The notes under the pieces are model-generated. The model did not search any database. It had not been told where the DNA came from and worked only from the letters and a program-made list of their open reading frames with translations. Shown here one piece after another: positions 47,141 to 60,786 of a stretch of DNA of 64,000 nucleotides. Position 1 is the stretch's first letter, and each line of letters starts with the position of its first letter. The DNA is from Paraburkholderia ginsengiterrae (GTDB lineage: Bacteria > Pseudomonadota > Gammaproteobacteria > Burkholderiales > Burkholderiaceae): contig NZ_LXKA01000232.1 of NCBI RefSeq assembly GCF_001645125.1, positions 1 to 64,000 of the forward strand, read 5' to 3'. The translations under genes and the position numbers were made by a program.

Positions 47141-48307
47141 TTATTTCTCAGCGTCCGTGGAGGCCATCCGAAACACCGAGATACCCTCCATCGGGTCCAG
47201 GGTCTCGCGCCACGGTGCCCGCGCGAGCAGGCGGGTCGTGTCTTCATAGCCCGCGGCCCAGCGTTTCTCAATCCCCGCTGACGAAAAATCGATGTCCCGG
47301 TTCAGGTCGTCGTTATCGAATGCGGGCGCGTCGAGTTCCAGTACCTGCATGGTCGTGCCACAGCCCCAGCCGAGGAGCGCCTGCAGTTCCGGCGTCTTGC
47401 GCTGATCTTCCGGGATGTGCTGGCTGAGTTCGCGAATCACGTGACGCAACCGGTGAATCTGCTTCTGCCGGTCGAGATGGCTTTCCGCGCGGCTCGAATA
47501 CTGAATGTCGCGCTGGCGGCTCATGACCTGCAGGATGGACTCGGGTTCGGGTCCGTTCGACGGCCACAACTGCACCGAAAAAATCACCGAGCTGCGGCGT
47601 GGGCGGTCGTCGAGCACGGCTTCCAGCGGCGTGTTCGAGTAGATGCCGCCGTCCCAGTACGATTCGCCTTCAAGACGCACCGAAGGAAAGCCAGGTGGAA
47701 ACGCCGCGGATGCCATCACGTGCTCGACGTCCATGGGCGCATCGCGATTGGTGAAATAGCGCATTCGTCCGCTGCGGACATTGACGGTGCCCACCGTCAG
47801 CCGCGTTGCCTTGCTGTTCAGATAATCGAAATCGACCAATGAAGACAAGGTTTCGCGCAACGGGTCGGTCGAATAGAACGCCGCGTTCTCCGAACCGACT
47901 CGCGTCTGAATCCCTGCCCATGACGACGGCCGGGGCGTGAAGAAAGACGGCACGCCTTGCGTGACGATCGCGAGGTCGCGCGACCAGTTGGCGAGCCCTG
48001 GCCACCACCCGCTCAATGCGTCAAAGCCATGCCGCGCCACGCCGTTCCAGAACTGCTTCAATCGCTCGATGCGGTGCTCGGGCAGATTGCCGGCTATGAT
48101 CGCGCCGTTGATCGCGCCGATCGACGTGCCGATCACCCAGTCGGGTTTGACCTTGCCGTCGTGCATGGCCTGATAGACGCCCGCCTGGTACGCGCCTAGG
48201 GCGCCGCCGCCCTGAAAGACAAGCACGACCTGTCCGGGAATGTCCGGCGCGCCCGCCGTTCGAGCGGACGTGTCAGCGTCGCGTTTGCCTTGCGTCTTGT
48301 TGCCCAT
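47141..48307 (-). CDS. patatin-like phospholipase with DUF3734 domain
   Basis: 388 residues from ATG 48307 (GGGAGA upstream). The oxyanion hole VLVFQGGGALGAYQAGVYQA and the nucleophile GTSIGAING (Ser about 77) give the patatin fold, with the catalytic Asp in YWDGGIYSNTP. The C-terminal part from about residue 250 (RAESHLDRQKQIHRLRHVI) matches DUF3734. It is probably an intracellular lipid acyl hydrolase. It is convergent with the BON-domain gene. Confidence 0.92.
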   Translation of the reverse strand: MGNKTQGKRDADTSARTAGAPDIPGQVVLVFQGGGALGAYQAGVYQAMHDGKVKPDWVIGTSIGAINGAIIAGNLPEHRIERLKQFWNGVARHGFDALSGWWPGLANWSRDLAIVTQGVPSFFTPRPSSWAGIQTRVGSENAAFYSTDPLRETLSSLVDFDYLNSKATRLTVGTVNVRSGRMRYFTNRDAPMDVEHVMASAAFPPGFPSVRLEGESYWDGGIYSNTPLEAVLDDRPRRSSVIFSVQLWPSNGPEPESILQVMSRQRDIQYSSRAESHLDRQKQIHRLRHVIRELSQHIPEDQRKTPELQALLGWGCGTTMQVLELDAPAFDNDDLNRDIDFSSAGIEKRWAAGYEDTTRLLARAPWRETLDPMEGISVFRMASTDAEK

Positions 48308-48448: not shown

Positions 48449-49639
48449 TCAGACCATGGAGACAACGCTGTTGAGCAGCGTCTTCACGAGTACCGACTGG
48501 CGCGTCGCGCCGGTCTTAGCGAACACGCCGCGCAAGTGCGCGCGCGCGGTATTTTTGGTCATGCCGAGCGCGTCGGCGGCTTCGTCGAGCGTGAGGCCAT
48601 CGACCAGCAGCAGCGCGACCTCGGTTTCGGTCGGCGTCAGGCGAAACAGTTTGCGCAGCATGGCGCGTGAGTTTTTCGGCGAGCCTGCGGGATCGCGAAT
48701 AAAGACGGCGACGGCCGGCCGTCGCCGCTTGTCCTCGGCGCAATAGTTCAGCGGAATGGGACGGATCAGCACACTGAGCGGCATGTCGCCCGCCGGCCGC
48801 GACAAGGTGGTCGCCTCGACGCATGACGTAGCGGCGATCAGGTGGTTGTTGATGCCCGACTGGATCGCCTTCTGGAATTTGCGGTTTTCCAGCGGACAGT
48901 GCGCGTGCAAGGCGTCCTGGCTGACATAGATGCCGTCGCGCTTCGCGAACAGGCGATCGGCCGCGCCATTGCTCTTCATGATCTTGCCGTGTTCGTCGAG
49001 GATCACGGAGCCCACCAGCATGCGATCGATCGTGCCCGCGTACAGCGTGCGCTCGGATTCGAGCACATCCAGTATGGAGTGCAGATCAACGGCGCGTTTC
49101 AGATGCGGCAGAACAATGGTGATCAATGCCTTGTCGGCCTCGTCATAGTCGCGGCCGCGATGGGCCCGGCTGACAAAGAACGCGCACTCCACGCCGTCGT
49201 CGGTATGGATGTTGGCCGCGAGGATGTAGCGCAGATCGAGCGGCTTCAGGTATTGCAGATAGAAGTCGTGCTCACGCCAGGCGGCTTCGCCGAACAGTTC
49301 GTCCGCCGTGAGCACCTGACCCGCCGGGAGGCGGGTGAACGGACAGATCGCGTAGTAGTGTTCGCTGTACGAAGGCTCGCCCGGCAATAGCGTCCCGTAC
49401 GAGGACGCATTGACGATCAGGCCGGGCCGCTCGCTTGCCGGATTGCGCAGCACCAGCGTGACAAAACTGGCGTCGAGCCGCTGCCGGATCCATTCCAGCA
49501 GGCTCGACCATGGCGTCGTCTCTGTCGGCCCCTGATAGACGAGGCCGAGCAGCGCGCTCAGTTGCCGGGGGGCGAGCGCGGCGGCGTCGAAGCAATCGGA
49601 AGCGGTATTGCTGCAATCAGGCTGATGCTGCATCGACAT
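48449..49639 (-). CDS. LuxR-type (HTH_LuxR) transcriptional regulator
   Basis: 396 residues. The C-terminal ~65 residues are a LuxR DNA-binding domain: FRLTPTETEVALLLVDGLTL, then LGMTKNTARAHLRGVFAKTG. The N-terminal ~320 residues form a sensor with no autoinducer-binding signature; a PAS-like stretch is possible around 200-240 (DEHGKIMKSNGAADRLFA). It lies downstream of cysNC, in the same direction, 122 bp away, with two inverted repeats in between. Best candidate to read the palindromes shared by the cysD and DUF1214 promoters (inference). Confidence 0.9.
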   Translation of the reverse strand: MSMQHQPDCSNTASDCFDAAALAPRQLSALLGLVYQGPTETTPWSSLLEWIRQRLDASFVTLVLRNPASERPGLIVNASSYGTLLPGEPSYSEHYYAICPFTRLPAGQVLTADELFGEAAWREHDFYLQYLKPLDLRYILAANIHTDDGVECAFFVSRAHRGRDYDEADKALITIVLPHLKRAVDLHSILDVLESERTLYAGTIDRMLVGSVILDEHGKIMKSNGAADRLFAKRDGIYVSQDALHAHCPLENRKFQKAIQSGINNHLIAATSCVEATTLSRPAGDMPLSVLIRPIPLNYCAEDKRRRPAVAVFIRDPAGSPKNSRAMLRKLFRLTPTETEVALLLVDGLTLDEAADALGMTKNTARAHLRGVFAKTGATRQSVLVKTLLNSVVSMV

Positions 49640-49665
49640 GTCCAGCGTCTCCCATGGAACATGGC

Positions 49666-49710
49666 CTCAGGTTCGTGTTGCTTGGTTCGCCTCAATCATA
49701 CGAACCTGAG
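49666..49710. promoter_or_regulatory. inverted repeat upstream of the luxR-type gene
   Basis: CTCAGGTTCGT (49666-49676) and ACGAACCTGAG (49700-49710), a perfect 11-bp dyad with a 23-bp spacer, 27 bp before the luxR-type start. It could be an operator or a 5'-leader stem. Confidence 0.5.
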
Positions 49711-49712
49711 TG

Positions 49713-49751
49713 CCGCCCGCGTCGTCCGTTTGATCTAGACGACGCGGGCGG
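49713..49751 (-). terminator. perfect hairpin after cysNC
   Basis: CCGCCCGCGTCGTC pairs with GACGACGCGGGCGG (14 bp, 11-nt loop), 11 bp past the cysNC stop. There is no T-run, so it may slow or attenuate readthrough into the luxR-type gene rather than stop it fully. Confidence 0.5.
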
Positions 49752-49761
49752 GGTGGCCGTG

Positions 49762-51666
49762 CTAATCCGGCCGACCGCCGGCCAGCAGATGCGCGACGAT
49801 GCGCCCGGCGGCCTGTTCCGGTGTGTCGGCCGTGGTGTCGATACGGATCTCCGGGTGTTGCGGCGGCTCATACGGCGAGTCGATGCCGGTGAAATTCCTC
49901 AGTTCGCCGCGCCGCGCTTTCTTGTACAGCCCCTTGGGGTCGCGCTGTTCGGCGACGTCGATGGGCGTGTCGACGAATATCTCGACGAACATGTCTGGGC
50001 CGGCCAGCGCGCGCGCCATGTTCCGTTCGGCGCGGAAGGGCGAGATAAAGGACACCAGCGTGATCAGACCGGCGTCGGCCATCAGACGCGCCACCTCGGC
50101 CACCCGACGGATATTCTCGACCCGGTCGGCCTCGGAGAAACCGAGGTCCTTGTTCAAACCGTGGCGCACGTTGTCGCCGTCGAGCAAGTAGGTGTGCTTG
50201 CCGAGCGCGTGCAGCTTCTTCTCGACCAGGTTGGCGATGGTCGACTTGCCGGCGCCCGACAAGCCGGTGAACCACACAATGCGCGGCGTCTGATTCTTGA
50301 GCGCCGCATGGGCTTTGCAATCGACGTCGACGGCCTGCCAGTGCACGTTCTGCGAGCGCCGCAACGCGAAATGCAGCATGCCCGCGCCGACCGTATTGTT
50401 GGTCATCCGGTCGATGACGATAAAGCCGCCCGTATCGCGATTCTCCGTGTAGGGATCGAAGGCGATCGGCTGGTCGAGGCTGAGATTGCACACGCCGATC
50501 TCGTTGAGCTCGAGTGTGCGGGCCGCCATATGGTCGAGCGTGTTGACGTTGACCCGGTATTTCGGTTGCGCGCTCGTCGCGCCGACCAGCCGTGTGCCGA
50601 TCTTCAGCAGATACGGACGGCCCGGCAGCATCGGTTCCTCGCTCATCCAGACGAGTGTCGCTTCAAACTGGTCGGCGACCGCCGGCGGCGCGTCGGCGCG
50701 CGCGATCACGTCGCCGCGGCTGATGTCGATTTCGTCTGCGAGGGTGAGCGTGACCGACTGGCCGCACGCTGCCGTATCGCATTCGCCCGCCGCGGTGATG
50801 ATGGCCGTGATGCGGCTTTCCTTGCCGGACGGCAGCACGCGGATGCGCTCGCCGCGGCGGATGTCGCCGGAGACGATGTTGCCCGCATAGCCGCGAAAGT
50901 TCAGGTTCGGCCGGTTGACCCACTGAACCGGCAGACGGAATGGGGCGCTGCGTTGCGCGTCGTCTTCGATCGGCACGCTCTCCAGATACGTCATCAACGC
51001 GGGCCCGCGATACCACGGTGTGTTGGCGCTGGGTTCCGTGACGTTGTCGCCGCGCAGCGCGGACATGGCGATGCAGGTGATGTGCGCGAGGCCGATCTGG
51101 GCGGCGAACTCCCGATACTCCGCCTCGATCCTGTCGAACACCTCCTGCGCGTAGCCGACCATATCCAGCTTGTTGATCGCCACCACCACGCGCCGGATGC
51201 CGATCAGCGACACCAGGTAGCTATGACGGCGCGTCTGCGTCAGCACGCCCTTGCGTGCATCGATCAGGATGATCGCGACGTCGGCGGTGGAGGCGCCGGT
51301 CACCATATTGCGCGTGTACTGCTCGTGCCCCGGCGTATCGGCGACGATGAACTTGCGCTTATCCGTCGAGAAGAAGCGGTAGGCGACGTCGATGGTGATG
51401 CCCTGTTCGCGCTCGGCGGCGAGGCCATCGACGAGCAGCGCGAAGTCGAGCTCGCCGCCTTGCGTGCCGGCTCTCTTCGAATCCGCTTCGAGCTGGCTCA
51501 ACTGGTCTTCGAACAGCATCTTCGACTCGTACAACAGCCGGCCGATCAGCGTGCTCTTGCCGTCGTCGACGCTGCCGCAGGTGATGAAACGCAGCAGTCC
51601 TTTGGTTTGATGCACCGACAGATATTGCTCGATGTCGTCGGCAATCAGCGTGGAGACGTGTGCCAT
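49762..51666 (-). CDS. cysNC: sulfate adenylyltransferase subunit 1 / APS kinase fusion
   Basis: 634 residues. Residues 1 to about 445 are CysN, an EF-Tu-like GTPase with P-loop GSVDDGKST, the DTPGHEQY switch and INKLD; it drives ATP sulfurylase made by CysD. Residues from about 450 are CysC (APS kinase) with P-loop GLSGAGKST and [16 protein letters not shown], ending GGRPD. The fusion makes PAPS from sulfate and ATP in two steps. The ATG overlaps the cysD stop, so translation is coupled. No PAPS reductase or sulfite reductase gene is present, which fits a supply for sulfotransferases rather than assimilation. Confidence 0.96.
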
Positions 51667-52562
51667 CAGAAGTAGCCCTCCTGTTTTTTCTTTTCCATCG
51701 AACCGGCCGAATCGCTGTCGATCAGCCGTCCTTGACGTTCCGAGGTTTTCGCCAGCAGCATTTCCTGAATGATGCCGGTCAGCGTATCGGCTTCGCTCTC
51801 GATCGCGCCGGTGAGCGGATAGCAGCCCAGCGTGCGAAAGCGCACTTTCTTCATCTGCGGCACCTCATTTTTTCGCAGCGGCATGCGTTCGTCGTCGACC
51901 ATGATGAGCGTGCCGTCACGTTCCACGACCGGGCGCTCCCTTGCGAAATAGAGCGGCACGATCGGAATCTGATTCAGGTAGATGTATTGCCAGATGTCCA
52001 GCTCGGTCCAGTTCGAAATCGGAAACACGCGGATGCTTTCGCCCTTGCGTTTGCGCGCGTTATACAGGCGCCAGAGTTCGGGGCGCTGCATCTTCGGGTC
52101 CCAGCGGTGCTGTTCGGAACGGATCGAAAAAATGCGTTCCTTGGCGCGCGATTTTTCTTCGTCGCGGCGTGCGCCGCCGAATGCCGCGTCGAATCCGTAG
52201 TGGTCGAGCGCCTGTTTCAGCCCCTGCGTTTTCCAGATGTCCGTATGAACCGCGGAACCGTGGGTGAACGGATTGACGTTCTTTTCGATGCCTTCGGGAT
52301 TGACGTGTACCCGCAAATCAAGGCCGAGCCGTTCGACGGTCTGGTCGCGGAACGCGATCATCTCGCGGAATTTCCACGTCGTATCGACGTGCAGCAGCGT
52401 AAAAGGCGGCTTGGCCGGATAAAAGGCCTTGAGCGCGAGGTGCAGCATGACCGAACTGTCTTTGCCGATCGAGTACAGCATGACCGGGTTTTCGCATTCG
52501 GCCACCACCTCGCGCATGATGTGGATGCTCTCCGCCTCCAGCCGCTCCAAGTGAGTCAACAT
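51666..52562 (-). CDS. cysD: sulfate adenylyltransferase subunit 2
   Basis: 298 residues. The PP-loop ATP pyrophosphatase motif is [20 protein letters not shown] (about 29-48), and [15 protein letters not shown] with [14 protein letters not shown] are CysD signatures. With CysN it forms ATP sulfurylase, which makes APS. It starts at ATG 52562, and the palindrome at 52657-52668 lies about 95 bp upstream. Confidence 0.96.
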
Positions 52563-52652
52563 CGTGAGTCTCCTTTGTCGTTTGCAGGACCCCGTGACGA
52601 AGAGCCAGGGCCGCGCATGAAGGAGACAGTACCGGTCGGGCGGGTGTCGGTT

Positions 52653-52675
52653 CTTCGTCCGACCGGACTAAAAAA
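52653..52675 (-). promoter_or_regulatory. palindromic operator site A (cysD promoter)
   Basis: The core GTCCG-AC-CGGAC (52657-52668) is a perfect dyad. Read toward cysD it is TTTTTAGTCCGGTCGGACGAAG. Over 18 bp (TAGTCCGGTCGGACGAAG) it is identical to site C before the DUF1214 operon, in the same orientation to its gene. Confidence 0.7.
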
Positions 52676-52714
52676 GACAAGGGGACGGCGTGATCTGCGA
52701 TGGGTGAGCACGTT

Positions 52715-52984
52715 TTACGGGGGCGGGAGGCGATCAGGCAACGGCCGGTTCCGCGGCAAGCGCGGAAAGGTCAGGCCATCGTGGGCCACCGCCGCGTAAG
52801 CAGACTTGGTCATGGCGACACCGGCCGCGACGTTGCGGTGATACTTGACGAGCGCAATTGTGAGCCGGCCGGCGGGCGTCCTGTCTTCGTTGGCGCCGGA
52901 CTTGATGAAGCGGTTGCGCAGCGCGAGTGGGTCGATTTTTACGGGAGAGAACTGCGAGGCCGCCTCGGGATAGGCGTGTTGCAT
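52715..52984 (-). pseudogene. NADH:flavin oxidoreductase (OYE family) N-terminal remnant
   Basis: From the ATG at 52984 the frame encodes FSPVKIDPLALRNRFIKSGA, then ALVKYHRNVAAGVAMTKSAY and AVAHDGLTF. This is the FMN-binding start of old-yellow-enzyme family proteins (2,4-dienoyl-CoA reductase / BaiCD-like), which run to about 350-400 residues. After about 75 residues the similarity ends in unrelated Pro/Arg-rich sequence and stops. It lies upstream of cysD, beyond site A, in the same direction. I see no sign of the remaining 300 residues. Confidence 0.7.
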
Positions 52985-53276
52985 GCGTGGCTGCACTCGC
53001 CGTCGCCATCGGCTGCCTTCGCGCTTCTTCCCATGACAACGCGTCGCTGGTTGAGCAGCTACGAACCGTTGCACGCGAAGCCGCGTCGAACCTCCAGTTC
53101 GAACTGGGCCAGTTACGGGGACTGTGCGATGTGTCGATATCCGATCTGAAATTGCGTCAACCCCTCCAAGCCATCGACCTGTGTGCGGTCGGGCCGTCCA
53201 TATTCACGAGGCATTAACCCTGACTTTGGTATTCCAATAAAACTTCGTAATGCTAAGTTAACGTGCTTGACAAAAA
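52985..53276. other. stretch without recognisable gene
   Basis: The only open frame (52927-53217 +) gives a short Arg/Ala-rich then Leu-rich peptide with no known pattern. Composition becomes AT-richer near 53230, before the vgrG remnant. Confidence 0.35.
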
Positions 53277-53306
53277 TTGACCGAATTTTCGGTTCAATCC
53301 TATTTG
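53277..53306 (+). promoter_or_regulatory. possible promoter and dyad before the vgrG remnant
   Basis: TTGACC (53277-53282) and TATTTG (53301-53306) are separated by 18 bp. A palindrome ACCGAA-tt-TTCGGT (53280-53293) overlaps this -35. Weak. Confidence 0.3.
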
Positions 53307-53370
53307 ATTCGACCCCAAAGTTCGCTACCGTTCTGCTGGGCTATTCAGTGAACGTCTAGCAGGAGGGGGC

Positions 53371-54021
53371 TTGAGTCAGAAAAAAGATCTTACGCACCGG
53401 CACTACCATCTCGACATGCCACAGGCCAGCAGTGCCGAGCTGGCCGACATTTTTGCATTCGAGGGAGAACGGGCCATCGGGGAACCCGGTCGGTATGCGA
53501 TCCGGTTCACGCATCCGCAACCGGACCTGTCACGCACCGACTACCTGAACAAGCCTGCTGCGTTTGTGATCCAGCCCCCGTTCAATCCGCTCACGACGCT
53601 CAAGCCCGAAGCGGAACGGCGTGTGCAGGGGGTCATCACAAGCTTCAGCCAGCGCGGCAGCAGTCGCGACGAAACGACCTATGAGGTGGTGCTGGAGTCG
53701 CGCCTGGCGCTATTGCGCAATACGCCCAAGTGCCGGTTCTTCCTTGACAAGAGTTTCCCGGAAATCATCGAGCAGATCCTGCGCGAACACGGTTTCGACA
53801 GGATCCACGGCAGCTTCGAGTTCAACCTGTACCGCACCTATCGCAAGCGCGGTTTCGTGATGCAATGGGGCGAAGACGACCTGACCTTCATCACGCGACT
53901 GTGCCGCCGCTCCGGTATCTGGTTTGTTTGCGAGGAGGGCACCAGCGCGACGAGATCAGGAGAGAAGCATGGCGCTACTTGTCGCGGACCCTCTGGCGTA
54001 TCTACCGCTGGCTGCTGCTGA
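53371..54021 (+). pseudogene. truncated vgrG (type VI secretion spike), N-terminal part only
   Basis: From a TTG start (AGGAGGGGG just upstream) about 190 residues match the VgrG N-terminal, phage gp44-like region: RYAIRFTHPQPDLSRTDYLN, then RRVQGVITSFSQRGSSRD, DKSFPEIIEQILREHGFD and FITRLCRRSGIWFVCEEG. Full VgrG has 600 or more residues, with an OB fold and a beta-helical needle; those are absent. After about 53940 the frame carries unrelated sequence and stops at 54021. No other T6SS gene lies nearby, so this is an orphan, inactive spike. Confidence 0.82.
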
Positions 54022-54386
54022 GCATGTTGTCTCCGGCGATCATGATCGCAATGGGGATGACTTTCGACGGGGAGCCCGGCAGTAAGGCTGTCGTCTGGAT
54101 AGGGGGCGTCTTGCTGGCGTTCGTACCTTGCTGGGGCATCTGGATTTTCGTTCCAATCTGGCGTGACCATGTTGCCCAGCGACTGTATTTCGAGGACATC
54201 GCGGACGGCACCTGCCCGGATCGGGGCTGGCAGATTTCACGCGCGAACGGGTTGAAGTGGTACAGGAAACAGGGTTCGCCCTTGTGGATCAGTTCGAGGC
54301 GGGAACGCCCGTGGGCGCACCCTGCCGATGCGATTGCGCGCATGGAAGGCCGGGATCCACCGCCCCGGCAACGGACGAAGTGGTAG
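53946..54386 (+). pseudogene. membrane protein fragment fused out of frame to vgrG remnant
   Basis: In another frame than vgrG the sequence reads RDEIRREAWRYLSRTLWRIY, two hydrophobic helices (LLLSMLSPAIMIAMGM; VVWIGGVLLAFVPCWGIWIF) and a soluble tail with RLYFEDIADGTCPDRGWQIS, ending at 54386. The N-terminus seems to be lost at the junction near 53940-53946; ATG 54024 and TTG 53979 are possible later starts. It looks like a small vgrG-associated accessory or immunity-type membrane protein, but I do not recognise the family. Confidence 0.5.
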
Positions 54387-54397
54387 GAGTGGCAGGC

Positions 54398-54883
54398 CTA
54401 ACCCGCCTGCATCGCCCCTGCTGCGTGAAAAAGCGACTCAGCCCGCACCTTCAAACTGCGCGCAACCGCATCGAAGCCCTGGCGCACCCATTCCCCATGC
54501 GTTGCCATCACGACAGGCGCCGTCGGCCCCAGGAAGAGGTCGGTCGAGTAATACGTGCAACTCGCCTCACCGGTGGCCTCGATCACCTGATCGCGGCGCG
54601 CCGCATCTGGATTGCCTGCTGAAGGCGTCATTTCCCAAGACAACAGCGCCGGGCGGTCGAACGCGGCCAGATGCTCGACCACATGAATCAGTTCGCCCGG
54701 CACCGCGGGATTCGGCAGGTAAAGGTTCACCGGGTCGCCCAGCTTGAGCGTGGATTCGACCTTGACCGTATAGGGATTCCATTGCGGATAGGCGGCAAGA
54801 TCGGTCAACACGTCCCATACGAGCGACGCGGGAGCGTTGATCTCGACCTTGATCGAGGTAACCAGGTATTGCTCTGCGGACAT
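54398..54883 (-). CDS. SRPBCC family protein (polyketide cyclase-like)
   Basis: 161 residues from ATG 54883 (GGAGG 5 bp upstream). A START-like helix-grip fold: SIKVEINAPASLVWDVLTDL, then YPQWNPYTVKVE, a middle with HVVEHLAAFDRPALLSWEM, and the C-terminal helix VRQGFDAVARSLKVRAE. The hydrophobic pocket normally binds a polycyclic or lipid-like ligand. Divergent from the DUF1214-sulfotransferase operon and sharing its regulatory region (sites B and C), so it probably belongs to the same pathway. Confidence 0.9.
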   Translation of the reverse strand: MSAEQYLVTSIKVEINAPASLVWDVLTDLAAYPQWNPYTVKVESTLKLGDPVNLYLPNPAVPGELIHVVEHLAAFDRPALLSWEMTPSAGNPDAARRDQVIEATGEASCTYYSTDLFLGPTAPVVMATHGEWVRQGFDAVARSLKVRAESLFHAAGAMQAG

Positions 54884-54956
54884 GCAAGCCTCCATGGCAA
54901 GTGATGGTCGCGCGTCATAGCGCGCGGCCATCATGTCAGGGACGCACTGTCACGTT

Positions 54957-54977
54957 CCTCGTCCGGATGGACTAAAA
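54957..54977 (-). promoter_or_regulatory. palindromic operator site B (SRPBCC promoter side)
   Basis: GTCCGGATGGAC (54961-54972) is the same dyad with one mismatch. Read toward the SRPBCC gene it is TTTTTAGTCCATCCGGACGAG, matching site A in flanks and orientation. Its centre is 35 bp from that of site C. Confidence 0.6.
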
Positions 54978-54993
54978 ACGGGTAAACCCAGGC

Positions 54994-55011
54994 TAGTCCG
55001 GTCGGACGAAG
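54994..55011 (+). promoter_or_regulatory. palindromic operator site C (DUF1214 operon)
   Basis: TAGTCCGGTCGGACGAAG, core GTCCG-GT-CGGAC (54996-55007), is an exact 18-bp match to site A read toward cysD. It ends 57 bp before the DUF1214 start. Confidence 0.7.
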
Positions 55012-55068
55012 ATTGCCGGTTCGCACCACTTGTATCGTGCGCTTTCAAGAACACGATGGAGGTCCGGC

Positions 55069-56178
55069 ATGGCAGCACAGTCCAGCGAAGCGCAACTCCT
55101 TTCCGGTCAGACGTGGGCCGATTTCTGCGACACGCTAAAGCGCAGCGGGCAGCAGATTCTCCGCGCGGAAGCGCCGGGTGATGCGCTGACCCGCACCGAG
55201 GGTTTCCGTTATCTGAGCCGGCTGTTGCGGATCGCGCTTGAAATGCACGTGGAATTCGCGGACGCGGATTTTCCCGGATTCTTTTCGCCGTCGCATGAAA
55301 CCGCGAAGATCGGCGCGGATAACCCGGACAATCTCTATCAGTACGCACGCCTGAACGGCGCGCATGACTATCGGGTATCCGGGCGGCGGGGCACGGTGGC
55401 GTATCTGAGTTTCGGCACGCAGAAGGGCGGCTACGAAACCGACGGCAAGATGATCCAGACCGGCTTCCTGGATGCGAAACATCTCGCGGTCGATGCACAC
55501 GGCAACTTCGAAATCGTGCTAAGCCAGCAAGCGCACGAAGGCAACTGGGTGCGCATGGAGCCTGGCACCAACGCGCTAGTGGTGCGGCAAACCTTTCTCG
55601 ATCGCAAATCGGAGCAACCCGCTGAACTGAAGATCACGCGTCTTGGCTCCACCGACAAACCGGCTCCGCTCGACCCCGTGACGCTGCACGACGGCCTGAT
55701 GCGCGCGGCCGGCTTTGTCGAAAACACCGCGCGTCTTTTCGCGGATTGGGCGGGCGGCTATCAACGTCATGCCAACCAGCTGCCACCGGCGGACCAGGCG
55801 GTGTGCCAGGCAGTGGGCGGCGACCCCAACATTTTCTACTACCACTCGTACTGGGCGCTCGGTGACGACGAAGCGCTGGTGATCGACGTGGCTTCGGTTC
55901 CCGAGTGCGACTTCTGGAATCTGCAAATCAATAACTACTGGATGGAATCGCTCGATTACCGGCACCACACCGTCTGCATCAACAAGCACTCCGCGCGCTA
56001 TGACGCCAATGGCGGCGTCTCGCTGATGCTCAGTGCGCGCGATCCTGGCAAGCCCAATTGGCTCGATACGGCGGGGCATCGCAACGGCACGATGTGTCTG
56101 CGCTGGGTGGGCGCGAAGCAGCCTGTCCATCCCGTTGTGCGGGTCGTCAAATTCAACACGCTAGAGGAGGCTGCATGA
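55069..56178 (+). CDS. DUF1214 domain-containing protein
   Basis: 369 residues from ATG 55069 (GGAGG upstream). The C-terminal ~120 residues carry the DUF1214 pattern (YYHSYWALGDDEALVIDV, DFWNLQINNYWMESLDYRHH and NGGVSLMLSARDPGKPNW). The N-terminal half is beta-rich (YRVSGRRGTVAYLSFGTQKG). No signal peptide is visible, so cytosolic. Biochemical function is unknown. The stop overlaps the sulfotransferase start (ATGA), so both are made together, which suggests it handles the sulfotransferase's substrate or product. Confidence 0.85.
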   Translation: MAAQSSEAQLLSGQTWADFCDTLKRSGQQILRAEAPGDALTRTEGFRYLSRLLRIALEMHVEFADADFPGFFSPSHETAKIGADNPDNLYQYARLNGAHDYRVSGRRGTVAYLSFGTQKGGYETDGKMIQTGFLDAKHLAVDAHGNFEIVLSQQAHEGNWVRMEPGTNALVVRQTFLDRKSEQPAELKITRLGSTDKPAPLDPVTLHDGLMRAAGFVENTARLFADWAGGYQRHANQLPPADQAVCQAVGGDPNIFYYHSYWALGDDEALVIDVASVPECDFWNLQINNYWMESLDYRHHTVCINKHSARYDANGGVSLMLSARDPGKPNWLDTAGHRNGTMCLRWVGAKQPVHPVVRVVKFNTLEEAA

Positions 56179-57404
56179 CAACCGGCGCTGCCATTGAACA
56201 CAAGCTAGAGGTGGATCATCTGCTGGCGCTCGCGATCGAACGCTCTGGAGGCCTGACCGATTTCGGAAGCGGCAATTACCGCGAGGCCCTGGACGTGCTG
56301 TTCGATTCGTTGAACCGCGAAGCCAACCTGTCGGCGCAAGGCGAAGCGCTGCTGCACGACAAGGTGCTGGCGCAACTGGTCAACCGGCTGGTGATCGAAG
56401 ACTATTGCCGGCGCTACCCCGAGATTCTCGCGCAGTCGATCGACGATCCGCTTGTGATTGTCGGCTTGCCGCGCACCGGCACTACGCTGCTGCAACGCGT
56501 TCTGGCGGTCGACCCGCGCTTCCATTCGGCGGCGTGGTGGGAGACCCGCTACCCGGCGCCACGGCACGACGAAACACTCGAGAATCCGGCGTCGCGTATC
56601 GGCCTGGCGTGCGCGGAGGTCGATCTGATGATCCGCTATATTCCGCAGATTCTCGCGATACACCCGCTCGACGCGATGCAGCCCGACGAAGAGTTCATGC
56701 TGATGGAGCACTCGTTCATGTGCGCGATGGACTCGTACGCGAACGTGCCCAGCTATACCGCGTGGCTGGCGCAGCAGGATCAGACATCCGTCTACGAATA
56801 CCTGAAGAAGATGCTGCAATTCCTGCAATGGCAAAAGCGGCAGCGTGGCGTGCCGGCCGCGTCGCGCTGGATCCTGAAGACGCCGCAGCATCTGCACACG
56901 CTGGAACTGCTGTTCAAGGTTTTCCCGGGCGCGCAGGTGGTGCTGACTCACCGCGATCCGGCCATGACCATTCCGTCGATGGCCAGCATGGCGCACACGC
57001 TGTGGAAAATGTACGCCGATAACCCGGATGCCAGAGTTGTCGGTAATCAGTGGTCCTCGCAAATGCGGCGTGCGGTTCATCACGCCATGGAGGTGCGCGC
57101 CACGTTGCCTGACGAGCGCTTTCTCGACATCCGTTTCGAGGATACGGTGACCGATCCATTCGGCGTGATCGAGTCGGTGTACCGCTTTGCCGGCCTGCCG
57201 TTGACCAACGAGGTACGCGAAGCGATGGCCGCATGGCTCGCCGGGAACAGCCGGGACAAACGTGCCGCACACGGCTACACGCTGGCCGAGTTCGGACTCA
57301 GCGTGGAGCAACTCAGGCAGGACTTCGCGCCATACCGTCAGCGCCACATTCTGCCCGCGGCGGACGCAGCGGACCCGGCTGACGTGGCACACGTGGCGCA
57401 TTAG
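56175..57404 (+). CDS. PAPS-dependent sulfotransferase family protein
   Basis: 409 residues from ATG 56175, overlapping the upstream stop. The 5'-phosphosulfate loop is IVGLPRTGTTLLQRVLAVDP (95-114), the 3'-phosphate region is LTHRDPAMTIPSMASM, and a likely catalytic His/Glu region is MLMEHSFMCAMDSY. The C-terminus (about 385-409) is Ala/Asp/His-rich and probably disordered. It should transfer sulfate from PAPS to a hydroxyl or amine of a small molecule; the substrate is unknown. PAPS would come from CysD and CysNC, encoded 3.6 kb away under the same operator motif. Confidence 0.93.
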   Translation: MTTGAAIEHKLEVDHLLALAIERSGGLTDFGSGNYREALDVLFDSLNREANLSAQGEALLHDKVLAQLVNRLVIEDYCRRYPEILAQSIDDPLVIVGLPRTGTTLLQRVLAVDPRFHSAAWWETRYPAPRHDETLENPASRIGLACAEVDLMIRYIPQILAIHPLDAMQPDEEFMLMEHSFMCAMDSYANVPSYTAWLAQQDQTSVYEYLKKMLQFLQWQKRQRGVPAASRWILKTPQHLHTLELLFKVFPGAQVVLTHRDPAMTIPSMASMAHTLWKMYADNPDARVVGNQWSSQMRRAVHHAMEVRATLPDERFLDIRFEDTVTDPFGVIESVYRFAGLPLTNEVREAMAAWLAGNSRDKRAAHGYTLAEFGLSVEQLRQDFAPYRQRHILPAADAADPADVAHVAH

Positions 57405-57468
57405 CCCATCGCTCGGCGCGACGCGCCTGCGTAGAACCCTCCATTCAACGTCAGTACAGAGGAAAGCC

Positions 57469-57909
57469 ATGCCGCGCGATCTGCAGTACCTGCTCGATAA
57501 AACCGACATCTCCGATCTGCTGATCGACTACGGCACCGCGATTGATTCGCGCGATTTCGCCGCGCTGGATCGCATCTTCACCGCGGATGCCGTGATCGAC
57601 TACCGCGCCACCGGCGGCCCGCGCTGCACGCTGGAAGAGGCCCGGCGGTTTCTGGCCGAGGCCTTGCCCCAGTTCCCGCGCAGCCAGCACATGATGGGCA
57701 ACATCAGCATCAGGCTGCAAGGCGCGACGGCGACCGCCCGCACGCTGTGCCACAACCCGATGGTGATGCGCAAACCGGACGGCGGGGAGGAGGTGGTGTA
57801 CTTCGGCATCTGGTATGCGGACGAACTGCTGCGGACTGGCGACGGCTGGCGCATCCGCAGCCGGTCGCTCGAATTCTGCTATTCGGACAACTATCAAAGG
57901 AGTCTTTGA
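57469..57909 (+). CDS. SnoaL/NTF2-like protein (scytalone dehydratase type)
   Basis: 146 residues from ATG 57469 (GAGGAAAG upstream). A single cone-shaped domain: KTDISDLLIDYGTAIDSRDF, then FTADAVIDYRATGG and RTLCHNPMVMRKPDGGEEVV. The Asp in FTADAVIDY and the His in SQHMMGN occupy the usual catalytic positions of scytalone dehydratase / SnoaL_4 proteins. It is 64 bp after the sulfotransferase gene and 1 bp before the SDR gene, thus in the same operon. Confidence 0.88.
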   Translation: MPRDLQYLLDKTDISDLLIDYGTAIDSRDFAALDRIFTADAVIDYRATGGPRCTLEEARRFLAEALPQFPRSQHMMGNISIRLQGATATARTLCHNPMVMRKPDGGEEVVYFGIWYADELLRTGDGWRIRSRSLEFCYSDNYQRSL

Positions 57910-57910
57910 C

Positions 57911-58702
57911 ATGCTCATGCGAAACAAGGTGGTCGTGGTGTCGGGTATCGGTCCGGGCCTCGGTGTCAAGCTGGCGATCGAAGCGGCGCGCGAGGGCGCG
58001 CACGCCGTGGTGATCGCCGCACGCACCGCGGCGAAACTCGACGAGGCGGAACAGCGGATCCGCGAACTGGAGGTGGACTGCCAGGTGCTGAAGGTGACGG
58101 CCGACATTACCGACAAGCAGCAGTGCAAGCATCTGGCCGAGCGCGCAATCGGCCAATTCGGCCGGATCGATGCGCTGGTGAACAGCGCTTTCGTGCACGG
58201 CAAATTTCCCGAACCGATCGAAGACGCCGATCTGGACGGCTGGCGCGAGGTGTTCGACACGAATGTGTTCGGCACCATGAACCTGACGCAGGAAATCGTG
58301 CCGCACATGAAAAAACGCGGCAGCGGCGCGATCGTTATGATCAACACGCAGGCCGCGCGCAAACCGTTTCCGGGCGAAGCCGGCTACGCGGCGTCCAAAG
58401 GCGCGCTGGCCGTAGCGGTCAAATATCTGGCGAGAGAACTCGGGCCGCACGGGATCCGGGCCAACAGCATCCACATGGGGTGGATGTGGGGCGCGCCGGT
58501 GCAGGGCTATGTCCGGCAGGCCGCGGCTCAGTACAATATCCCCGAGGAGCAGATCATCGAGCCCATTGCAGCGAACATCGCGCTCGGCCACATTCCGACC
58601 GATGACGACTGCGCGAGGGCTGCGTTATTTCTGGTGTCCGATTACGCGAAAGTCATTACCGGTGCGACACTCGACGCCAACGGCGGCGATTTCATGGCAT
58701 GA
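57911..58702 (+). CDS. short-chain dehydrogenase/reductase
   Basis: 263 residues from ATG 57911 (AGGAG 8 bp upstream). The Rossmann glycine motif GIGPGLGVKLA replaces the usual TGxxxGIG, with the catalytic Ser in IVMINTQAARK (probably Thr/Gln variant region) and YAASK at about residue 157-161. The C-terminal half has SIHMGWMWGAPV and ATLDANGGDF. NAD(P)-dependent oxidation or reduction of an alcohol/ketone is expected. It closes the DUF1214-sulfotransferase-SnoaL-SDR operon. Confidence 0.92.
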   Translation: MLMRNKVVVVSGIGPGLGVKLAIEAAREGAHAVVIAARTAAKLDEAEQRIRELEVDCQVLKVTADITDKQQCKHLAERAIGQFGRIDALVNSAFVHGKFPEPIEDADLDGWREVFDTNVFGTMNLTQEIVPHMKKRGSGAIVMINTQAARKPFPGEAGYAASKGALAVAVKYLARELGPHGIRANSIHMGWMWGAPVQGYVRQAAAQYNIPEEQIIEPIAANIALGHIPTDDDCARAALFLVSDYAKVITGATLDANGGDFMA

Positions 58703-58742: not shown

Positions 58743-59831
58743 ATGGCAGGCAAGCATCAACACACCGGCGAGCACACCGGCGAGTACACCGGCGAGTACA
58801 CCCGCGCCGCCGGCGTGGACAACCCGGGCGGCACGCGCAACGCCGGCAATGCCGGCATTGCAACGGGGGCGGCCCACGTCTTCGCCTTCAACGGTGACGC
58901 GGACGGACTCTGCGCGCTACAACAATTGCGCCTCGCGGAGGCGCCGCAGGCGGCGCTCGTCACCGGCGTCAAGCGCGACATTCAGTTGTTGCGGCGAATC
59001 GAGGCCGGTTCCGGCGACCGGGTCACCGTGCTCGACGTCTCGCACGAACAGAATTGCGTGGATGTGCAGCGTCTGTTGGAGGCCGGTGTGCAGGTCCGCT
59101 ATTTCGACCATCATTTCGCCGGCGATCTGTGCGCGCATCCTTGCTTCGACGCGCATATCAACACCGCGCCCGACGTGTGCACGAGTTCGCTCGTCAACGG
59201 CTACCTCGGCGGACGCTATGTGCGCTGGGCCATCGTGGCGGCGTTCGGCGACGAGCTGCCGCAGCTCGGCGAGGCGCTGGCGCGCGCGCACGGACTCGCG
59301 CCGCGGACCATCGCATCGTTCGCCGAGCTTGGGCGCCATCTGAACTACAACGCGTACGGCGAATGCGTCGACGACCTGCACTTCGACCCGGCCGCGCTGG
59401 CCGAGGCGATGCTGCCGTTCGCCGACCCGGTCGATTTCATGCAGGACACGAACGTGCTGGCGGCGCTGTGCGAAGGCTATCGCGAGGATATGGGCAAGGC
59501 GCGGGCGCTGTGTCCCGAGCGGGCGTGCAACGGCGCCACGCTGGTCACGCTGCCGCACGAGGCATGGGCGCGCCGCGCCACGGGCGTGCTTGCCAACGAA
59601 CTGATGCAGAGCCGGCCGGACCACGCATTGGCGGTGCTGACGCCAAAATCCGGCGGCGGTTTTGTCGTGAGCGTGCGGGTGCCAACGGGCAGGCCGCTCG
59701 GCGCCGACGATTTTTGCCGCACCTTCGAGACCGGCGGCGGCAGAAAGCGGGCAGGGGGCATCAATCATCTGCCGGAGACGGAGGTCGAGCGGTTCGTCGC
59801 GCGTTTCGAAACGGCATTTGGCGTGGCGTGA
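58743..59831 (+). CDS. DHH family phosphoesterase
   Basis: 362 residues from ATG 58743 (GAGA upstream); GTG 58728 is an alternative with GGAAG upstream. After a ~40-residue low-complexity leader, the DHH motifs follow in order: FNGDADGLCALQQL, VTVLDVSHEQN and YFDHHFAGD, with a later ARRATGVLANELMQS and a C-terminal DHHA1-type end GGGRKRAGGINHLP. Such enzymes hydrolyse oligoribonucleotides, pAp (3'-phosphoadenosine 5'-phosphate) or cyclic dinucleotides. pAp is the by-product of sulfotransferases, which makes this gene interesting here (inference). It starts 40 bp after the SDR gene. Confidence 0.88.
   Translation: MAGKHQHTGEHTGEYTGEYTRAAGVDNPGGTRNAGNAGIATGAAHVFAFNGDADGLCALQQLRLAEAPQAALVTGVKRDIQLLRRIEAGSGDRVTVLDVSHEQNCVDVQRLLEAGVQVRYFDHHFAGDLCAHPCFDAHINTAPDVCTSSLVNGYLGGRYVRWAIVAAFGDELPQLGEALARAHGLAPRTIASFAELGRHLNYNAYGECVDDLHFDPAALAEAMLPFADPVDFMQDTNVLAALCEGYREDMGKARALCPERACNGATLVTLPHEAWARRATGVLANELMQSRPDHALAVLTPKSGGGFVVSVRVPTGRPLGADDFCRTFETGGGRKRAGGINHLPETEVERFVARFETAFGVA
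58761..58808 (+). repeat. 12-bp tandem repeat in the DHH gene
   Basis: Four 12-bp units (CACACCGGCGAG twice, TACACCGGCGAG, then a decayed TACACCCGCGCC) encode HTGE HTGE YTGE YTRA near the N-terminus. Being a multiple of 3, changes in copy number would not shift the frame. Confidence 0.85.
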
Positions 59832-60036
59832 CAGGCGTGACGGGCGTATGCGGCCATTGCGCGACCTGACCCCGTAACGACGCGGGCGGCTGGCACCATC
59901 GAATGGTCGTGACTGGCACTACGCGCAGGCGCCCAAAGCTGCGACGATTCGGCCCCTCTCCTGAAGATGTCGTCGTGCGCATACGGTAGCAATCGATTTG
60001 ACCTTCGATTCACCGTTTTCTGCGTACCCGCGACTC

Positions 60037-60786
60037 ATGAACTTCGCCGACTTTGCCGATCTGACCGGCAATCCCGCCATCCTGGGATGTCTTGCCCTGA
60101 TTACGATCGTCGCCGGCATGGCAAAGGGTCTTACCGGATTTGGTGGCGCGCTCGTCATGGCGCCGTTGTTCGGGCTGCTGATTCCCGCGCCTGAGGCCGG
60201 TGTGCTGATCGTGCTGATTCACTTTACGACCTCGCTGCAAGGCGTGCGAAGCTGGGCGGGCGCGGCGCGCTGGCGCAAGGTGATACCGCTGGCGCTCGTC
60301 GCCATGGGCTGCACCGCCGTGACGACGCACTGGATGGCCAGCGAGAGCGCCGCCGATATTCGCCGGCTTGTGGCGGTCGCGGTCCTCGCTTCCACCGTGA
60401 TGCATATAAGAGGGTGGCGCTGGCTGCACGATAGCGGCTGGCGTCCCACCTTCACCGCCGGCGCGATGAGCGGCGCACTGACCGCGCTGGGCGGCATCGG
60501 CGGGCCGCCCGCCGTCTACTATCTCAACCGCATTGGCCAGGGCGCCGCGCTGCGGGCCAATCTGCTCGCGTATTTCGCGGTGCTCTATGTGGGCGTGGTG
60601 GCGCTGCTGGTCGGTGAGCATCAGGTTCATGCACCGCAGCTCTCGTCCACGGCGTTGCTCGTGCCGGTCTTCGCACTCGGCGTCGCCGCCGGCGAGCGGC
60701 TGGGCAAGCGCCTGCCGCTGCGCGGGCTGGAGCGCCTCGTGAGCGGCTTGCTGCTGTGTTCCGGGCTGGTCGCGCTGTTGACGTGA
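60037..60786 (+). CDS. TSUP family permease (TauE/SafE-like)
   Basis: 249 residues from ATG 60037 (a TTG at 59998 would add 13); no clear ribosome site. About eight membrane helices in two halves, each with the family pattern: GMAKGLTGFGGALVMAPLFG in the first and GALTALGGIGGPPAVYYLNR in the second. TSUP permeases export sulfite, sulfonates or other organic anions, or import them. It lies 205 bp beyond the DHH gene, so may be a separate unit. A link with the sulfation genes is possible but not shown. Confidence 0.9.
   Translation: MNFADFADLTGNPAILGCLALITIVAGMAKGLTGFGGALVMAPLFGLLIPAPEAGVLIVLIHFTTSLQGVRSWAGAARWRKVIPLALVAMGCTAVTTHWMASESAADIRRLVAVAVLASTVMHIRGWRWLHDSGWRPTFTAGAMSGALTALGGIGGPPAVYYLNRIGQGAALRANLLAYFAVLYVGVVALLVGEHQVHAPQLSSTALLVPVFALGVAAGERLGKRLPLRGLERLVSGLLLCSGLVALLT

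Follow-up and report, generated by a model that had tools for sequence, protein, structure and literature searches.

A sulfation locus of Paraburkholderia ginsengiterrae that probably belongs to aerobic steroid catabolism

A sulfation locus under a shared operator

The 64,000-nucleotide stretch of Paraburkholderia ginsengiterrae DNA analysed here (the window, on contig C223 of an 8.53-Mb genome) carries a sulfation locus in which a sulfotransferase gene stands together with cysD and cysNC, whose products would make 3'-phosphoadenosine-5'-phosphosulfate (PAPS), and with the gene of a LuxR-type regulator. We consider it likely that this locus is the sulfation arm of aerobic steroid catabolism, with a TeiR/TesR-like LuxR activator, a PAPS supply of its own and probable removal of the by-product 3'-phosphoadenosine-5'-phosphate (PAP). 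The original prediction, in which sulfation genes and their PAPS supply were joined by a palindromic operator, was right in what it observed; its reading pointed the right way but was too narrow, the steroid context having been missed.

The minus strand holds luxR, cysNC and cysD, then OYE-like and VgrG-like remnants, then srpbcc; the plus strand holds duf1214, the sulfotransferase gene, snoaL, sdr and a DHH-type gene. Relatives were counted by tblastn over 72 loci collected by sequence, because a simple gene caller overlooked genes (in the window too, and mostly on lower-GC contigs). The genes are as follows.

48449..49639, minus strand: LuxR-type regulator, 396 amino acids; helix-turn-helix (GerE) at residues 334-385; PF00196 just over the cut-off
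49762..51666, minus strand: cysNC, 634 amino acids, sulfate adenylyltransferase GTPase subunit fused to adenosine 5'-phosphosulfate (APS) kinase; NF004035 above the cut-off
51666..52562, minus strand: cysD, 298 amino acids, sulfate adenylyltransferase small subunit; NF009214 above the cut-off
54398..54883, minus strand: SRPBCC protein, 161 amino acids; PF10604; relative at 66 of 72 loci
55072..56178, plus strand: DUF1214 protein, 368 amino acids; PF06742; relative at 70 of 72 loci
56175..57404, plus strand: sulfotransferase (Sulfotransfer_3), 409 amino acids; PF13469; G.PRTGTT at residue 97, HRDP at residue 258
57469..57909, plus strand: SnoaL_4 (NTF2-like) protein, 146 amino acids; PF13577; relative at 19 of 72 loci
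57911..58702, plus strand: SDR oxidoreductase, 263 amino acids; PF13561 and NF005909 above the cut-off; relative at 68 of 72 loci
58743..59831, plus strand: DHH/DHHA1-type phosphoesterase, last gene of the duf1214 operon; relative at 37 of 72 loci

CysD and CysNC relatives are present at 63 of the 72 loci, and the nearest named loci by sequence are those of Paraburkholderia domus and P. solitsugae. Within the plus-strand operon the duf1214 stop overlaps the sulfotransferase start, and a single base separates snoaL from sdr. The gene identities given originally agree with the Pfam and NCBIfam profile results, and the gene list was correct as far as it went, leaving out the DHH gene at 58743-59831 and an operator-like site before luxR.

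The operators have the dyad form TAGTCC-N4-GGACGA, and each of sites A, B and C points TAGTCC...GGACGA toward its own gene.

52653..52671 (dyad 52657-52668), minus strand: operator A, toward cysD
54957..54975 (dyad 54961-54972), minus strand: operator B, toward srpbcc; one mismatch to GTCCGNNCGGAC
54993..55011 (dyad 54996-55007), plus strand: operator C, toward the duf1214 operon
49720..49738, minus strand: degenerate operator before luxR, TAGATCAAACGGACGA; two mismatches to TAGTCCNNNNGGACGA

The three dyads lie where they had first been reported, in the reported orientation, and sites A and C are identical across 19 bp, one more than the 18 claimed. The bare 12-base dyad was rejected as stand-alone evidence, since its nine matches in the window at up to one mismatch (5.8 expected) are not clearly above shuffles, 12 of 100 of which reach nine. 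The extended 19-mer is far more selective: at up to one mismatch it occurs in the 8.53-Mb genome at sites A, B and C only, and two more places appear at two mismatches. When up to three mismatches are allowed, there are 64 matches in the genome versus 170 for the reversed control pattern, and this loose form therefore carries no meaning.

The extended site also recurs in related genomes. Across 37 loci having a LuxR gene of at least 55% identity, taken together with the window, a site with at most two mismatches precedes cysD in 35 of 36 cases, duf1214 in 38 of 38, srpbcc in 26 of 34 and luxR in 37 of 38; these loci are relatives and so not independent. Among 1185 shuffled upstream stretches, 1.4% contain such a site. 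For luxR, the sites of L007, L008 and L067 are each a single site counted from both sides, and those of L016 and L029 may fall within cysNC, judging by distance.

In the window, each of the three operators is followed at the same distance by a -10-like hexamer.

52626..52631, minus strand: TACTGT, 31 nt past the centre of site A
54930..54935, minus strand: CATGAT, 31 nt past the centre of site B
55033..55038, plus strand: TATCGT, 31 nt past the centre of site C

We examined this spacing in promoters having a site at up to two mismatches, thinned from 143 to 59 so as to share less than 75% identity in the 37 nt that follow the site. In 10 of the 12 cysD and 15 of the 18 duf1214 promoters, an xAxxxT hexamer starts 31 nt past the centre of the dyad; for srpbcc it lies at 31 nt in six of 12 and at 30 nt in the other six, and for luxR (n = 17) it is found at 29, 30 and 31 nt in eight, five and one, respectively. 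No other offset between 10 and 59 is used by more than three promoters in any of the four sets. This spacing puts the dyad centre near -42. Class II activators sit near -42, and the geometry thus favours activation over repression. Site conservation and the fixed promoter spacing together give good support to the original proposal that PAPS synthesis and the modifying enzymes are controlled jointly. The dyad TAGTCC-N4-GGACGA and, about 31 nt further on, a -10 hexamer make up a DNA signature that may serve to find steroid regulons in genomes.

The operator is shared with steroid genes

We rejected the idea that the site is private to the sulfation locus, as the dyad had first been read: similar sites precede steroid genes elsewhere in the genome, and the dyad is one form of an operator in wider use. 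The exact pattern TAGTCY-N5-GACGA occurs at 14 places in the genome (three in the window, five on contig C328 and six elsewhere), and its reversed control at 28, so that the placement of the sites is informative and their number is not. The five C328 sites precede hsaD, a DUF1302 gene (followed by a DUF1329 gene), kshA, hsaC and hsaA. The same contig carries KstD, a LuxR paralogue that shares 50% identity with the LuxR protein of the window, and genes that we take to be IpdA/IpdB-like. Thus KshA, KstD, HsaA, HsaC and HsaD, the set expected for 9,10-seco steroid degradation, are all encoded on C328, with KshA_C above the Pfam cut-off and HsaA, HsaC, HsaD and KstD matching NCBIfam models below those cut-offs. 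The -10 spacing at the five C328 sites is less clear than at the window sites. The two groups of sites also end differently, with GACGAAG or GACGAGG at the three window sites and GACGATG (four) or GACGATT (one) at the steroid sites, and the paralogous regulators may therefore differ in the site that they prefer. Upstream of the hsaD region on C328, the start of L126:3742-4431 resembles, by eye, an autoinducer-type LuxR regulator.

The regulator itself is a protein of about 390 residues with a C-terminal helix-turn-helix that scores 23.9 bits against PF00196, where the cut-off is 23.5. It has three more full-length paralogues in its own genome (50%, 48% and 30% identity), and the 48% paralogue, on C339, has a second hsaA-like gene nearby. 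In C. testosteroni ATCC 11996, a protein 34% identical to it over residues 17-393 is encoded 17.5 kb from HsaC/TesB; we presume this protein to be TeiR by its place only, two other matches in that genome being 33-34% identical. The stretch from tesB to tesR comprises 18 genes, and TesR/TeiR is required for inducing most steroid genes, according to the available portion of a review (PMC6678751). The resemblance to the TeiR/TesR system of Comamonas testosteroni thus comprises a LuxR-type regulator, its C-terminal helix-turn-helix and its nearness to HsaC/TesB. Two things differ: the regulator of the window is a paralogue in its own right, sharing 34% identity with the presumed TeiR, and no sulfotransferase is named for that system in the available parts of the literature searched. 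Judged from sequence, the window's LuxR protein probably works like TeiR, as a distant relative. Of the original proposal that a single regulator, probably the LuxR protein beside cysNC, governs the whole set, the shared control stands, whereas this particular protein is one candidate for binding the sites, there being three more paralogues and similar sites at steroid genes.

The module accompanies steroid genes in other genomes

We searched for the sulfotransferase and HsaC in identical draws of genomes at E 1e-60, scoring the best few candidates per genome, so that weak relatives could have been missed. Among 300 genomes of the window's family, 44 have the sulfotransferase, 52 have HsaC, 44 have both, eight have HsaC only and 248 have neither; the corresponding numbers for 398 Pseudomonas genomes are 19, 68, 19, 49 and 330. 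None of the 63 carriers over both draws has the sulfotransferase without HsaC. HsaC was also sought in the genomes of the collected loci, leaving aside 22 of the 72 (18 Burkholderia and four Pseudomonas): a match at 1e-40 was found in 47 of the 49 searched, and one of at least 49% identity in 46.

The module also lies among steroid genes. In genomes G101 and G177, cysD-cysNC stands behind maoC in the steroid operon, cysD being preceded by an exact TAGTCCGGTCGGACGA, and the duf1214, sulfotransferase, srpbcc, LuxR and DHH genes adjoin hsaD; the sulfotransferase matches there are 49% and 51% identical. A distance of 12 to 20 kb separates the sulfotransferase gene from hsaC in G244, G706, G663 and G315, and likewise on the Novosphingobium plasmid L128, where sdr, srpbcc, snoaL, cysD, cysNC, the sulfotransferase gene and duf1214 stand between hsaC-hsaA-hsaD and kstD. 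The gene next to cysD on this plasmid is weakly similar to the regulator (22%, GerE below the cut-off), and no exact operator site is present there. In Pseudomonas L030, genes for kshA, DUF1329, a thiolase and maoC lie within about 10 kb, and the kshA family is found in 10 of the collected loci. In some loci of the Pseudomonas type (L030:4973-6877 and relatives, 15 loci), the cysD frame is open for about 330 codons upstream, and the extended frame starts, by eye, with a stretch like a transposase-type helix-turn-helix. Together, co-occurrence and co-location fit the original guess that the substrate is hydrophobic, perhaps polycyclic, as steroids are.

A number of observations weigh against assigning the locus to steroid catabolism. 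The association is strong by Fisher's test (6e-45 in the family and 3e-16 in Pseudomonas), but the genomes are related and these values are uncorrected for descent. HsaC occurs without the sulfotransferase in eight of 52 family carriers and 49 of 68 Pseudomonas carriers, from which it follows that the sulfotransferase is accessory. Three carriers lack a good HsaC match: L006 (37% only) and the metagenome-assembled genomes L068 and L072 (2.2 and 2.3 Mb). At 35 of the 72 loci, the stretch examined has no LuxR gene of 55% identity, and many of these have no clear site before cysD or duf1214. In the window's own genome, module and HsaC cluster occupy separate contigs and are linked through the operator only, the link by place being seen in other genomes. 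Similar, more distant modules also occur away from steroid genes. The P. sprentiae plasmid L130 (8719-15235) carries a paralogous module of DUF1214, sulfotransferase, VOC, CysQ, CysD and CysN; acyl-CoA reductase genes are close by, and none of the steroid genes of the query set was found in its vicinity. An actinobacterial counterpart on the Tsukamurella tyrosinosolvens plasmid L127 (3126-10128), with cysD, a cysNC-like gene, a helix-turn-helix regulator and a DUF1214-like/SDR/sulfotransferase trio, is likewise without steroid genes nearby. Finally, the best fold match of the modelled DHH protein is the PAP phosphatase 8a8k, with RecJ close behind or tied.

These points bear on two alternatives to a role in steroid breakdown. 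The module could merely have hitch-hiked with steroid genes by descent or transfer, its sites being alike only through the paralogy of the regulators. The regulators are indeed paralogous, and in the family draw carriers are confined to five of 25 genera, but there is no exception among the 63 carriers of the two draws, and gene arrangement varies between groups while the link persists. Moreover, HsaC is found without the module in 57 genomes, so that the module follows the steroid genes and not the reverse. We regard hitch-hiking as very improbable. Alternatively, steroids could prompt the synthesis of a sulfated lipid or signal, in which case the sulfated product would be no steroid catabolite. 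None of the computed evidence fixes the identity of the substrate, and the P. sprentiae and Tsukamurella modules show that like gene sets exist away from steroid genes; set against this are the site sharing, the strict co-occurrence and the interleaving with steroid operons, and we hold this alternative to be improbable as well, if less so.

A model for steroid sulfation

The CysD, CysN and APS kinase domains are intact and both P-loops of CysNC are conserved, as expected for PAPS synthesis by CysD-CysNC. The sulfotransferase is predicted from its domain and its 5'-phosphosulfate loop to be PAPS-dependent; among its 72 relatives, the loop G.PRTGTT is found in 69 and HRDP in 40. Its closest solved structure is 2zq5, which we take to be Rv3529c, a sulfotransferase of this family. 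The DHH protein is a probable PAP phosphatase, a putative assignment from its model and motifs: NGDADG, DHH and GGGR are invariant in 20 sequences, and the predicted model (pLDDT 86; residues 1-41 are poorly modelled and the true start is uncertain) has a fold in keeping with DHH-type PAP phosphatases, with the Pfam DHH and DHHA1 scores below the cut-off. We also counted the CysQ of the paralogous P. sprentiae module toward this logic of PAPS and PAP. The DUF1214 protein is 73-74% identical to the solved Burkholderia cenocepacia structure 6ans, itself without an assigned function, and a fold search gave as confident matches 6ans and other structures with no stated function, adding none. Two more APS kinase genes are present in the genome (G000:C339:238790-240102 and G000:C24:62641-63423), one of which adjoins a Sulfotransfer_3 gene and the other of which shares an open frame with a weak sulfotransferase match.

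Cysteine assimilation seems to us an unlikely purpose for cysDNC, because cysD-cysNC travels with the sulfotransferase and sits in a steroid operon in G101 and G177; at Pseudomonas-type loci, cysDNC may serve cysteine assimilation and sulfation alike.

From the genes, sites, promoter spacing, site sharing, co-occurrence and co-location established by computation, we infer the following course of events. The TeiR/TesR-like LuxR activator would answer, probably, a steroid or steroid intermediate and bind the dyad as a class II activator, with its centre near -42 and the -10 hexamer about 31 nt downstream. Four promoters would be switched on, those of luxR, cysD-cysNC, srpbcc and duf1214-sulfotransferase-snoaL-sdr-dhh. 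The cysD-cysNC products would make PAPS, the sulfotransferase would pass its sulfo group to a hydroxyl of a steroid-derived compound, and the DHH protein would clear the by-product PAP. The SDR, NTF2-like, SRPBCC and DUF1214 proteins may work on the same substrate, before or after sulfation.

Within this steroid scheme, sulfation could serve either of two ends, which we place level with each other. Sulfation could turn a poorly activated hydroxyl into a leaving group, with an NTF2-like, EthD-like, SRPBCC or DUF1214 partner eliminating sulfate, a proposal that we entertain tentatively as somewhat short of an even chance. Such a route would consume PAPS in step with the substrate and would thereby account for an inducible cysDNC and a PAP phosphatase, and the occurrence of CysD and CysNC relatives at most loci is in its favour. 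NTF2-like genes are present in the module, and an EthD-like gene is found in Pseudomonas L030 (E 8e-4, just under the Pfam cut-off). On the other hand, we know of no sulfate-eliminating member of these families, the DUF1214 family has no assigned function, and relatives of the window's SnoaL protein are confined to the 19 loci listed above. In the excerpts available, the known steroid dehydratases are NTF2-like (Hsh2, BaiE) or of the EthD type (Hsh3; PMC12175502), which suits the proposal, whereas handling of the 12-hydroxyl is already assigned to SteA, SteB and Hsh1 (PMC8399759). The fullest version, in which steroid breakdown involves stoichiometric sulfate activation, new sulfate-ester lyases among the DUF1214, NTF2-like, EthD-like and SRPBCC proteins, and steroid-induced PAPS synthesis with PAP removal, seems to us rather unlikely.

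Sulfation could equally be a conjugation by which a steroid that is toxic or dissolves poorly, or else a phenolic seco-steroid intermediate, becomes soluble or fit for storage or export; this too we hold tentatively, at the same strength as the leaving-group proposal. Steroid sulfation has such a role in animals (PMC12789469, as far as the source was available), and in Burkholderia L015 the module has major-facilitator genes at its flanks. Growth of Caenibius tardaugens on cholate raises an arylsulfatase, by the portion available of PMC12882949, and so sulfated steroids do reach such bacteria. Conjugation alone does not explain the conserved DUF1214, SRPBCC and SDR partners, however, and no exporter is conserved across the mapped loci. 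The TauE/SafE-type exporter gene directly after the DHH gene (59998-60786) was considered as a sulfite-exporting part and rejected; a search at 1e-10 turned up no relative of it in the 72 loci, some stretches of which stop short of that place.

Relation to known systems

The locus shares its enzymes with systems in which CysD-CysNC supplies PAPS to a PAPS-dependent sulfotransferase; what differs is that they are joined here to DUF1214, SRPBCC, SDR and DHH phosphoesterase proteins within a steroid regulon. The 9,10-seco steroid clusters (KshA, KstD, HsaA, HsaC, HsaD) are found in the same genomes, have a similar operator and sometimes form the same cluster as the module, whereas the pathway as described in the available parts of the literature searched contains no sulfation genes. 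A further parallel is M. tuberculosis Rv3529c-Rv3531c, in that these are cholesterol genes and 2zq5 is the structure closest to the window's sulfotransferase; regulation differs, with a TetR-type repressor there and a LuxR activator here. In the excerpts available, Rv3529c to Rv3531c are listed as cholesterol catabolic and KstR binds a site at Rv3531c/Rv3532 (PMC6429209, PMC1995591).

Among the open-licence papers that the searches listed, we found no report of the sulfation module. The term "sulfotransferase", or "sulfo", is absent from the bacterial steroid papers searched by term and from PMC8399759 as well, and the main text of a C. testosteroni transcriptome study (PMC10637631) contains none of sulfotransferase, cysD, cysN or adenylyl. 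Decades of work, for the most part on a few model strains, have gone into mapping aerobic steroid catabolism, and no sulfation step is described in the literature searched; that 44 of the 52 HsaC carriers in the family draw have this conserved and apparently co-regulated module suggests that a reaction or substrates are still missing from the picture. Sulfate attachment may thus be an overlooked step of bacterial steroid breakdown, and the locus gives the DUF1214 family a biological context.

Neighbouring sequences

A gene for a patatin-like phospholipase with a DUF3734 domain (47141-48307) adjoins luxR; its similarity to the NCBIfam CBASS phospholipase model is far under the cut-off. Between cysD and srpbcc are an OYE-like remnant and a VgrG/Phage_GPD fragment, at 52715-53074 and 53371-54021. 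The "OYE remnant" of the original prediction does correspond to a match, a weak one (PF00724, E 0.013). By tblastn coordinates, just 150 bp or so separate cysD from srpbcc in L005 and L006, and the remnants in the window therefore look like a later insertion or rearrangement.

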